This document shows positions 22,336 through 24,778 of a stretch of 64,000 bases of DNA, in pieces (within the stretch, counting starts at the first letter, position 1; the number at the start of each line of letters is the position of its first letter). Source of the DNA: Flavobacterium croceum DSM 17960. GTDB lineage: Bacteria; Bacteroidota; Bacteroidia; Flavobacteriales; Flavobacteriaceae. The translations under genes and the position numbers were made by a program. Below the pieces are notes generated by a model that was not told the origin of the DNA, ran no database searches, and saw only the letters and a program-made list of their open reading frames with translations. The stretch is from the NCBI RefSeq assembly GCF_002917885.1, contig NZ_PQNY01000010.1, positions 1-64,000 on the forward strand, given 5' to 3'.

Positions 22336-23376
22336 TTAGTTGAAATCAAATCGAACACCTAGCGAAACATTGTTTTGTTTTACGGCATTGTCTTTAAACA
22401 AAGTATTCAAATCGTATTTTAGGTATAAACTGGTTGCTCTATGGCCAATATAGGCGCTTAATCCGTAGGAAAAATCGGAGGCGTTAAAATTGCCTTTTTG
22501 TTTGTCTTTTACGTTATCACCGTCTAATTTGTATTTTAAAATTTGTTTAGATTTTATTCTAATACCTGCATATCCACCTATTCCGAATCTAACAGATTCG
22601 TGGGTTCTAAAATGAGTTTTTGTTCCATCTTTTGAAAGTTTTTTTGGTGTAAAATCAAATTCTAAATGAGCTGGAAAAACTAAATATACATTTCTTAATC
22701 TAGATTCTTTTAGGTCTAATGGATGGGTTTCTAACCTGGTTATTTCTTGATTTTTTACAAAATATCTATTGTCTGTAGGACGCAAATTGTTGTACATAAC
22801 AGACCATCCGTATTTAAAATGAAGCAAATTATCATTTTTAAAAATTCGGGTATTGTAGGTTATGCCCCACTCGTAAAAATGGGAACCCCAAACACGATAA
22901 TCTGAATGTTCTAGGTCTTTGCCGTCTGTAATTATGTTGTTTAAACCCGCAGCAAAAACAAATTGAGTGGTTGTTCTTAGATTTGATTTATGTGCATATA
23001 TTCTTTTTTTATAAATTTTGCCATAACCATAATCAATTAATACTGAGTCTTTTTCAGCAATTTTCCCATCAATTTTATCTTGTATCAATGCGTTTAATTC
23101 TTGTTGTACAACGGCAATTTTATTTTCAATAATGGTAGCACGTGCTTCGGCTAGTTGTTTTTTTCTTTCGACTGCTTTTTCATTGGTAATTAAGCCTTTG
23201 TCCAATTGTATATTAACTTCTTCAATTTCTTTTTTAAGTGTTTCTTTTTCTTGATTGGTTATTTGTTCCATTTTGTTGGACAGTTCACTTACTTTTTTTT
23301 CAAAAGTGTTTTGAGCAAATGTTTTGCTTATCATAAATGATAGCAAGAAAACGGTGTAGTAAAATAAATTTCTCAT
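22336..23376 (-). CDS. Secreted coiled-coil plus outer-membrane barrel protein
   Basis: Not recognised by name. It has a signal peptide of about 22 residues (ending KTFAQ), then about 90 residues of Lys/Glu-rich coiled coil (about 25-110). From about 130 to the end is an aromatic, strand-rich domain of 8-12 strands that ends VSLGVRFDFN, the pattern of an outer-membrane barrel. Length is 346 residues. It is the third gene of an operon with an ECF sigma factor and a membrane-anchored anti-sigma-like protein, 28 bases after the latter. It may be the sensor or the main output of that regulatory unit. The role is inference. Confidence 0.7.
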   Translation of the reverse strand: MRNLFYYTVFLLSFMISKTFAQNTFEKKVSELSNKMEQITNQEKETLKKEIEEVNIQLDKGLITNEKAVERKKQLAEARATIIENKIAVVQQELNALIQDKIDGKIAEKDSVLIDYGYGKIYKKRIYAHKSNLRTTTQFVFAAGLNNIITDGKDLEHSDYRVWGSHFYEWGITYNTRIFKNDNLLHFKYGWSVMYNNLRPTDNRYFVKNQEITRLETHPLDLKESRLRNVYLVFPAHLEFDFTPKKLSKDGTKTHFRTHESVRFGIGGYAGIRIKSKQILKYKLDGDNVKDKQKGNFNASDFSYGLSAYIGHRATSLYLKYDLNTLFKDNAVKQNNVSLGVRFDFN

Positions 23377-23404
23377 GATTTTTGTTTTTTTGATTGATAA
23401 TTGA

Positions 23405-24097
23405 TTACTCCTTATTTCTATTGATGATGGCTACTTTTACTTCTTGATAATTTTTATTTATTTTTTGTAGCATTTTTTCTCTAAAAGTTAATTCTACTTC
23501 TTTATCGGCATGAGCCAAAAGTGTATTGGCGTTTAGTTTAACTCGATAGTTTGTTTTTTTTGTATGGTTTTGTTCTACGCTTAATAAAAGTTCATCGGCA
23601 TCTACTGTTACTGTTTTTGTGCTTATAGTATTGGTGTTTATATTGTTTTCGGCTATGGGTGTATTTTTAATTTCTTGCTGTGTGTTCGAAAGGCTATTAT
23701 GTTCTTGAACTATATTTTCTGTTGTTGTTTTATAGGCTATTTTTCTTTTTTCTTTAAAAAATGGGTTTGCTACTGTGTTTTCAATTTTAGTAGGTATTGC
23801 ATTAGGCAAACTATCGTATTTTTCAATAGATGATTTTTGTGTGGTAACTATATTTTGGTTCGGTGTGGTACTATTTTGGCTGGTTTGTGAGGTGTTCCAT
23901 ACAACAATAGAAAATACAATAGTAATTAGAGCAGCTATCCCAATCCATTTGTATAGAACTGTGTTGCTGTTTTTAGTTGTTTTGTTTTCTGCAACAGCAA
24001 GCATGGCATCGAGCCTGTCCCAAGCTTGAGCAGAAGGAGCAATCGATCTATTAGAAAGCTCTTTTTTTATTTGATTTTCAAATTTATTTGGTGCCAT
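23405..24097 (-). CDS. Putative membrane anti-sigma factor
   Basis: 230 residues. A cytoplasmic N-terminus (MAPNKFENQIKKELSNRSI) holds a segment SAQAWDRLDAML. One membrane helix lies near residues 49-66 (WIGIAALITIVFSIVVW). A Ser/Thr/Asn-rich periplasmic part of about 160 residues follows. This layout matches the proteins that follow ECF sigma genes in Bacteroidota. The ATG overlaps the end of the sigma gene by 14 bases, strongly coupling the two. No zinc-binding ZAS motif is seen, so the assignment rests on topology and position. Confidence 0.65.
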   Translation of the reverse strand: MAPNKFENQIKKELSNRSIAPSAQAWDRLDAMLAVAENKTTKNSNTVLYKWIGIAALITIVFSIVVWNTSQTSQNSTTPNQNIVTTQKSSIEKYDSLPNAIPTKIENTVANPFFKEKRKIAYKTTTENIVQEHNSLSNTQQEIKNTPIAENNINTNTISTKTVTVDADELLLSVEQNHTKKTNYRVKLNANTLLAHADKEVELTFREKMLQKINKNYQEVKVAIINRNKE

Positions 24098-24644
24098 TTT
24101 GGTAGTTTGTTGTTTTTTCTATTAATTCTTGCAAATATTTTCTTGCGTGTGATAGTTGCGATTTACTTGTTCCTTCAGAAATATGTAACAATTCTGCAAT
24201 TTCATGATGTTTATACCCTTCTACTACATATAAGTTAAAAACCATTTTATATCCTTCGGGTAATTTGTCTATTAATGCTTGTAATTCTTCGGCTGTAAAT
24301 TGTAATTCATGTTCTTGGTAGCTAAATTCGCTTTGTGTTTGGTCTTCAATAAAATTTACTTTTTTCTTTACCCGTAGGTACGATAGGCATTCATTTATCA
24401 TTATCCGCCTTATCCAACCTTCAAAACTACCTTTGTTTTCAAATGCTGCCAAATGTGTAAATACTTTCATAAAAGAAGAAATCATAACATCTTCGGCTTC
24501 GTGTATATCTTTGATATAATTGCGGCATACGCCCAACATTTTGGCTGCATAAGTGTTGTACAACTGATGTTGAGCATGCCTGTTGTTTTGTATGGCGTGT
24601 TCTATAAGTTGTTGTTCTTCGGTATGTAGCTTAATGACTTTCAT
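24084..24644 (-). CDS. ECF-type RNA polymerase sigma factor
   Basis: A sigma-70 region 2 (about 25-90: YNTYAAKMLGVCRNYIKDIHEAEDVMISSFMKVF) and region 4 (about 125-180: ALIDKLPEGYKMVFNLYVVEG, then HHEIAELLHISEGTSKSQLS) with no region 1 or 3. This is the extracytoplasmic-function class. The start at 24644 (MKVIKLHTEEQQ, 186 residues) was chosen over 24746, which lies upstream of the promoter found here. It heads a three-gene operon with its own ECF-type promoter, suggesting autoregulation. Confidence 0.9.
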   Translation of the reverse strand: MKVIKLHTEEQQLIEHAIQNNRHAQHQLYNTYAAKMLGVCRNYIKDIHEAEDVMISSFMKVFTHLAAFENKGSFEGWIRRIMINECLSYLRVKKKVNFIEDQTQSEFSYQEHELQFTAEELQALIDKLPEGYKMVFNLYVVEGYKHHEIAELLHISEGTSKSQLSHARKYLQELIEKTTNYQNGTK

Positions 24645-24682
24645 TTTGATTAAAAGATTGTTTTGTAGGGCTTCTATTTTTA

Positions 24683-24710
24683 TAGACGACACAACTAAAA
24701 GAAAGGTTGC
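24683..24710 (-). promoter_or_regulatory. ECF-type promoter of the sigma operon
   Basis: On the minus strand GCAACC (24710-24705) is followed after 16 bases by CGTCTA (24688-24683), then an A/T run. This resembles the general ECF promoter pattern, an AAC-containing -35 and a CGTC-containing -10 with a 16-17-base spacer. It is unlike the TAnnTTTG boxes elsewhere in the window. The sigma ATG is 38 bases further on. Confidence 0.6.
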
Positions 24711-24778
24711 ATGGGAGTTGTAATTTTTTTCTAAAATAAAATTCAATAAAGGTTTGAAAGCAAGATGATTTAAGTTGT

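Follow-up and report, generated by a model that had tools for sequence, protein, structure and literature searches.

A putative two-protein counterpart of one-chain envelope-sensing anti-sigma systems in Flavobacterium croceum

Background

The outer-membrane-sensing anti-sigma factors that we met in the literature are one-chain proteins of gut Bacteroidales. Dma2 comprises an anti-sigma domain, a transmembrane helix, a disordered tether and a C-terminal barrel, and its deletion raises the expression of das2 and its neighbours (PMC13088901). In a Phocaeicola pair, expression of the sigma gene increases 33-fold in response to a toxin, the likely signal being envelope stress (PMC9308784), and outer-membrane stress was again proposed as the signal of EcfO-Reo (PMC13114119). 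Here we analyse a three-gene operon of Flavobacterium croceum DSM 17960 that encodes an extracytoplasmic function (ECF) sigma factor, an inner-membrane protein of anti-sigma type and a secreted protein with a predicted barrel. Together with its promoter, it occupies positions 22336-24710 of the minus strand in the first 64,000 nucleotides (nt) of contig NZ_PQNY01000010.1, a stretch hereafter called the window.

The operon is like Dma2 in that a sigma gene stands beside the gene of an inhibitor with a short N-terminal domain, a transmembrane helix and a long disordered tether, a barrel being found at the far end. It differs in that the barrel is encoded as a protein of its own, which carries a putative secretion signal and a helical hairpin. 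In the EcfO-Reo system of Bacteroides fragilis and Phocaeicola vulgatus, the inhibitor is likewise described as extending from the cytoplasm to the surface and as a likely sensor of outer-membrane stress (PMC13114119, PMC9308784), but it is one chain and its named targets include nigD genes, whereas DUF5686 and DUF2807 genes are found here. The SM6 set of F. psychrophilum, compared by description, shares a CGT box at -10 and contains one ECF sigma/anti-sigma pair, but the targets listed for it are parts of the type IX secretion system, Band 7 proteins and others (PMC9723704). No two-piece form of Dma is described among the literature matches listed on ECF sigma/anti-sigma systems of Bacteroidetes and Flavobacterium, a search that leaves most subscription journals uncovered.

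An operon with its own conserved promoter

The sequence GCAACC-N16-CGTCTA stands upstream of the sigma gene at positions 24683-24710 of the minus strand, and the original prediction had taken it for an ECF-type promoter belonging to the operon itself. This claim was borne out by the comparison of orthologous upstream regions. A peptide-pattern scan returned 266 relatives, the best 80 of which were kept; one of these 80 is truncated at a contig end and, in all the 79 readable ones, the best site upstream of the sigma orthologue has the form [AG]CAAC[CT]-N16-CGTCT. The spacer measures 16 nt in every one of them, though lengths from 13 to 19 were permitted, and a chance match is ruled out by this conservation. 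ECF promoters have a consensus form with an AAC-type -35 and a CGTC-type -10 box, which the operon promoter fits in 79 of the 79 loci. By their titles, 66 of the 80 loci come from Flavobacterium and the rest mostly from bins of Flavobacteriaceae or Bacteroidetes, with one [Flexibacter] and one Bifidobacterium bin that is surely mislabelled; this set overlaps with our genus genome set, and near relatives within it are not independent. In the genus genome set, all 18 sigma loci whose spacer was measured, including that of F. croceum, have the spacer of 16 nt, and the locus L022 also carries the site; two entries corresponding to one locus at a contig end (L004 and L179) are excluded from the promoter counts. 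Upstream of one diverged orthologue (L021), neither such a site nor a CGTC box was found.

Conservation extends beyond the two boxes. The -35 element GCAACC (24705-24710, minus strand) is preceded by a conserved AT at 24711-24712, with the A found in 74 and the T in 78 of the 79 loci. The spacer (24689-24704, minus strand) has a T-rich start, with TTT at its positions 2-4 in 79 loci and TTC at these positions in F. croceum. The -10 element CGTCTA (24683-24688, minus strand) is conserved as CGTCT in all the readable loci and, 5 nt past it and near the expected transcript start, an ATAGAA element (24672-24677, minus strand) is kept as ATAG in 78 and in full in 74 of them.

The first gene (24084-24644, minus strand) encodes a protein of 186 amino acids (aa) from its ATG. 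It matches the Pfam families Sigma70_r2 and Sigma70_r4_2 (PF04542 and PF08281) and NCBIfam TIGR02937 above cut-off, and no region-3 family is among its Pfam matches, which is the domain content of an ECF sigma factor. This gene shares 14 nt with the second one (23405-24097, minus strand; 230 aa), and the third (22336-23376, minus strand; 346 aa) begins 28 nt past the end of the second. Both the sigma identity and the arrangement as three overlapping or closely spaced genes had thus been correctly predicted. No Pfam or NCBIfam family is found above cut-off in the 230-aa and 346-aa proteins. The former is assigned as an inner-membrane anti-sigma-like protein from its AlphaFold model and N-terminal homology, and the latter as a secreted protein with a helical hairpin and a barrel from its AlphaFold model and Foldseek.

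Predicted anatomy of the two envelope proteins

The AlphaFold model of the 346-aa protein (mean predicted local distance difference test score, pLDDT, 87; predicted template modelling score, pTM, 0.61) has an N-terminal hydrophobic helix, which we read as a signal peptide, two helices (residues 25-59 and 65-102), a loose segment (110-130) and a beta-barrel (135-345) of about 8-10 strands, that is, the fold of a small single-chain outer-membrane barrel. The break between the two helices, after residue 59 and before residue 65, sits at a mostly conserved glycine, and residues 25-102 are predicted to form a helical hairpin, not one rod. The secreted barrel originally proposed is therefore retained in the predicted model, and the single 90-residue coiled coil that was to precede it is replaced by these two helices. 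The best Foldseek matches of the predicted barrel are Ail (E = 1.9e-6) and OmpA, followed by OmpX (E = 7.9e-5), with low whole-chain template modelling scores to small barrels (0.23-0.29). Relative to Ail, OmpX and the transmembrane domain of OmpA, the barrel fold is similar and the operon protein adds the N-terminal periplasmic hairpin.

The model of the 230-aa protein is less confident (mean pLDDT 63) and contains helices at residues 5-16, 23-38, 45-70, 167-176 and 190-229, with a disordered region at 71-165. We take the first two helices as cytoplasmic, the third as the transmembrane segment and the C-terminal one (190-229) as periplasmic. Conservation is found at the N-terminus and in the last ~45 residues, but not in between. 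Of the features of the Dma family, the transmembrane helix and the disordered tether are present in this model and the C-terminal barrel of the same chain is absent: the model has no strands, and a barrel is encoded by the next gene instead. Sequence searches of the PDB with the anti-sigma profile, the barrel profile and DUF5686 returned nothing useful.

Distribution and one-chain relatives

Using the single sequence of the anti-sigma-like protein as query, 20 of 40 genomes were matched (its own included), all 20 from the same genus, and none of 15 genomes from other families. A profile of this protein recovers matches in 34 of 148 genomes of the phylum, the full-length ones reaching other genera of the family. 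The layout of the operon is also well conserved. The 14-nt overlap of the sigma and anti-sigma genes is found in 76 of the 80 loci, and a frame matching the barrel profile lies downstream of the anti-sigma start in all 80 (worst E = 2.5e-128, with a profile built from 11 sequences from outside those 80). The barrel gene also accompanies the sigma/anti-sigma pair in other genera.

The anti-sigma profile also retrieves longer frames. Ten of them (452-585 aa) were read, as well as an eleventh, and each lies directly behind an ECF sigma gene; they are ECF-linked proteins of the phylum and not named Dma proteins. In an alignment of eight of these 11 one-chain proteins, 48 N-terminal columns match the two-piece anti-sigma protein (hhalign probability 96.9%, E = 1.9e-10). 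This homology supports the anti-sigma layout that had been claimed for the 230-aa protein and speaks against the second protein being unrelated to anti-sigma factors. At the other end of the chain, five of the seven one-chain proteins scanned have a Pfam match of the OMP_b-brl type at E <=0.05, one of them above cut-off, and two have none.

The sigma factors of the two-piece systems group apart from those of the one-chain systems that were read. In a tree of 32 sigma factors, whose root is not known, the two-piece systems (19 sequences, branch support 99/96), the one-chain systems (11 sequences, 92/88) and a second two-piece type (two sequences, 100/99) occupy separate branches, and in two genomes (G147 and G162) a two-piece system coexists with a one-chain one. 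Together with the distribution of the two-piece form across genera, these separate branches lead us to reject a recent gene fission in one strain. Another ECF sigma gene of F. croceum (locus L374, G000:C2:56300-59300) is followed by the gene of a 312-aa protein with a similar kind of N-terminus, whose end resembles a TonB plug by eye; in three other genomes (L371-L373), a protein of ~900 aa stands in its place. Such an anti-sigma N-terminus could be a module to which various envelope parts are joined.

Further promoter sites in F. croceum and the genus

It had been suggested from the window that no second promoter of this form lies within it, that any regulon should be sought elsewhere and that the genome should be scanned for the two boxes. 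The pattern GCAACC-N15..17-CGTCTA indeed has a single match in the window (mean of 0.01 in shuffled sequences) and a single match in the whole genome (2,945,400 bases in 93 contigs), in both cases the operon promoter. A regulon beyond the window is supported by the relaxed form ATACAACC-N16-CGTCTA, which adds one site in front of a DUF5686 gene, and by DUF5686 sites across the genus.

We then used the extended pattern AT[AG]CAAC[CT]-N-TTT-N12-CGTCT[AT], with the reversed pattern as a control. Its one zero-mismatch site in the F. croceum genome (G000:C5:34519-34548, minus strand) has its -10 box beginning 24 nt upstream of the ATG of a gene whose 824-aa product combines a CarboxypepD_reg-like domain with DUF5686 (E = 8.2e-241). 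The ATAGAA element is missing at this site. The core CAACY-N16-CGTCT occurs nine times in the genome versus eight for the control; seven of these occurrences lie within open reading frames (ORFs) and the other two are the operon and DUF5686 promoters, so it is position and conservation that are significant, and not the count alone.

The upstream regions of 26 DUF5686 relatives were scanned, leaving out that of G021, which is cut at its start. A clear site was found in seven genomes (in each, 0 of 300 shuffles as good), and one more relative (G001) has a recognisable but degenerate site (45 of 300 shuffles as good) that scores below zero because the full-length position weight matrix is overfitted to the spacer. 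All eight sites end 17-46 nt upstream of the matched start. The upstream regions of G020 (2 of 300 shuffles as good) and G003 (8 of 300) have no CAAC/CGTC core and were not counted as sites; in the three genomes with a DUF5686 relative and no anti-sigma match (G014, G020 and G041), no site with the core boxes was found.

Among 31 genomes of the genus, the extended pattern yields 25 zero-mismatch sites: 20 at the position of the sigma operon (that of G003 at a contig end and that of G043 before a barrel-gene remnant), three upstream of DUF5686 genes, one upstream of a secreted protein and one 129 nt upstream of the gene of a secreted ankyrin protein. In 299 genomes of the genus, a pattern designed to exclude most sigma promoters gives 44 zero-mismatch sites in 42 genomes versus three for the reversed control, and all of them stand at the front of a gene on the same strand. 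Their targets are 15 sigma operons and 19 DUF5686 genes (both assigned by BLAST), six genes of DUF2807/GIN proteins (three by Pfam and three by BLAST) and four others, which encode a CarboxypepD_reg-like protein, an S41 peptidase with a lipoprotein-like start, an aspartyl-protease-like protein and an OmpA-family protein. Two of the 44 sites overlap a 63-aa reverse ORF, one (L320) lies within the upstream extension of the frame of its own target and, in L328 and L331, the assigned start codons overlap the -10 box, the first start codon having been chosen.

The 29 sites that do not belong to sigma operons are found in 29 genomes. Out of the 26 that were searched with the profile, 25 have a full-length anti-sigma match (E = 4.4e-43 or better), and the exception (G315, 88% complete) has a partial one; the remaining three (G000, G023 and G024) hold the protein according to the single-sequence search. 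Since the protein is present in about 20 of 25 Flavobacterium genomes anyway, this co-occurrence is consistent with the proposed regulon and not decisive. The name DUF5686 appears in no paper of the literature searched, and these sites would provide its first regulatory link and, with it, a testable role. The specificity of the promoter motif was measured at zero mismatches, and the motif offers a means of finding the regulon in other species.

Some sites fall outside these classes. In G013, a zero-mismatch site precedes the gene of a secreted 184-aa protein (L003:267-821, plus strand) immediately upstream of the sigma operon, and this genome has three sites in all: before this gene, the operon and, with one mismatch, a DUF5686 gene. 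Secreted ankyrin-repeat proteins follow a zero-mismatch site in L109 (G004:C19) and a one-mismatch site in L121 (G006:C8), in two large genomes of the genus. A diverged lineage is represented by G042 (L112, L113 and L114) and G022 (L117). In G042, TTACAACC-N16-CGTCTA sites, one mismatch away from the pattern, precede the sigma operon as well as two small lipoprotein-like genes, Lipocalin_4 being found in one of these two. In G022, where the site is ATACAACC-N16-CGTCTA, a further secreted gene with a similar start lies downstream of the operon.

A proposed bridge across the envelope and its alternatives

We consider it probable that the operon encodes a self-regulated system of envelope surveillance comparable to Dma and Reo, in which two proteins take the place of a single chain. 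The 230-aa protein is proposed to be the inner-membrane end of the sensor and the barrel protein its outer-membrane end. In the resting state, the ECF sigma factor would be held by the short N-terminus that the inner-membrane protein exposes to the cytoplasm. The barrel protein would present its hairpin to the periplasm, and the long disordered periplasmic tail of the inhibitor, ending in a conserved helix, would read the state of the barrel, be it inserted, missing, damaged or misassembled. Upon a disturbance of the outer membrane, the inhibitor would release the sigma factor, which would transcribe AT[AG]CAAC[CT]-N16-CGTCTA promoters. Its own operon would come first, so that the response would be amplified and the sensor remade, and would be followed by a small envelope regulon with DUF5686 as its recurrent member and, in some species, secreted DUF2807/GIN proteins. 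We infer that this sigma factor recognises these promoters and is bound by the second protein, that the barrel is the sensor and that the two envelope proteins touch; outer-membrane damage as the signal, and unbinding or proteolysis as the step that frees the sigma factor, would complete the scheme. The operon would in this way work like Dma, yet it lacks the single-chain feature. A barrel that senses or repairs outer-membrane stress, as the original prediction had it, would fit the predicted anatomy and the precedent of Reo and Dma. A broader version, which we put forward tentatively, is that of a sigma-E-like outer-membrane response across the genus, in which the one-chain Dma has its counterpart in a bridge of two proteins, the periplasmic tail of the inhibitor being docked on the hairpin of the barrel protein; the main output, DUF5686, would then be a factor for outer-membrane repair or assembly. 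As the two-piece form separates the sensor and the inhibitor genetically, the sensing part and the contact can be tested by removing single genes.

Several observations weigh against the surveillance model, the first of which concern the contact between the two proteins. In a mutual-information test with 103 paired sequences (effective number 36; columns with >25% gaps or >92% of one letter were dropped), the anti-sigma tail and the hairpin contribute 43 top pairs versus 38 expected by area (maximum of 38 in 20 shuffled pairings). The cytoplasmic domain and the barrel, between which contact is physically impossible, give the most pairs, 108 versus 45 expected (shuffled maximum 38). Other region pairs also exceed the shuffles, and the impossible pair does so the most, so the covariation reads ancestry and not contact. 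The C-terminal tail helix and the second helix of the hairpin are not more amphipathic than shuffled sequences (1010 and 1383 of 2000 as high, respectively), the first helix of the hairpin showing a weak trend (177 of 2000). In the distant relatives L287, L288, L112 and L117, the hairpin is kept and the conserved tail looks degenerate by eye. The docking of the tail on the hairpin is thus not supported, in tests that were weak. The one-chain proteins were retrieved with the same profile, so their N-terminal homology is a check and not an independent discovery, and their C-termini match the barrel profile weakly (24.6%, versus 0.4% in a control comparison of the barrel and anti-sigma profiles). 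As for the regulon, the site is absent upstream of 18 of the 26 DUF5686 relatives scanned. When mismatches are allowed, there is no excess over the control, neither in F. croceum (118 versus 172 with <=3 mismatches) nor in the 31 genomes (46 versus 48 with one), and zero-mismatch sites alone were used for this reason.

The missing signal of specific coevolution or docking would be expected if the sigma factor and its inhibitor were an ordinary pair, with the signal read by the anti-sigma tail or a protease, and the barrel were a regulated effector with a repairing or stabilising function. The barrel gene is also placed like an output, at the end of an operon under an ECF promoter of its own, and the other sites, too, mostly precede genes that seem to encode envelope or secreted proteins. 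Nevertheless, the barrel gene stays with the pair in 80 of 80 loci and in other genera, while the other targets differ between species, and the one-chain relatives carry a barrel-like domain on the chain of the inhibitor itself, so that we find this explanation rather doubtful.

Unfolded porins free sigma-E through DegS, and a comparable action would reverse the role of the barrel protein: uninserted barrels would accumulate in the periplasm, where their hairpin would bind the inhibitor and free the sigma factor. As the barrel gene would share the operon promoter, stress would lead to an excess of the barrel protein, and its C-terminal residues are well conserved in the core set. On the other hand, it can be reasoned that a positive loop running through the sensor itself would not easily shut off, and we regard this scenario as unlikely. 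Finally, it is very improbable that the system is the SM6 sigma factor of F. psychrophilum, serving a set with type IX secretion genes and having no special link to outer-membrane damage: the CGT box at -10 and the one sigma/anti-sigma pair among the SM6 promoters would agree with it (PMC9723704), but the selection of SM6 genes listed there, which includes GldN, PorU, Band 7 and others, does not recur among our targets, and type IX secretion was assigned to none of the 44.

Variant loci and neighbouring genes

Some loci depart from the usual arrangement. A small additional gene intervenes in two of the 80 loci; L168:4284-4658 and L224:4288-4662 (both plus strand) encode a 124-aa protein with a secretion-like start between the anti-sigma and barrel genes. 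The anti-sigma frame of L216 ends after 73 residues. In L120 (G043:C7), the usual conserved promoter is followed by a mere remnant of the barrel gene, the sigma and anti-sigma genes being missing; this genome has a completeness of 92% and a contamination of 7%. Longer barrel proteins of 531-536 aa, with ~185 extra residues, are found in L293:1012-2607 (minus strand), L294:185-1780 (plus strand) and L295:621-2231 (minus strand), where the additional domain lies N-terminal to the hairpin and has no Pfam family above cut-off. In F. croceum, the operon is flanked by a polyprenyl synthase gene on one side and by dnaG on the other.

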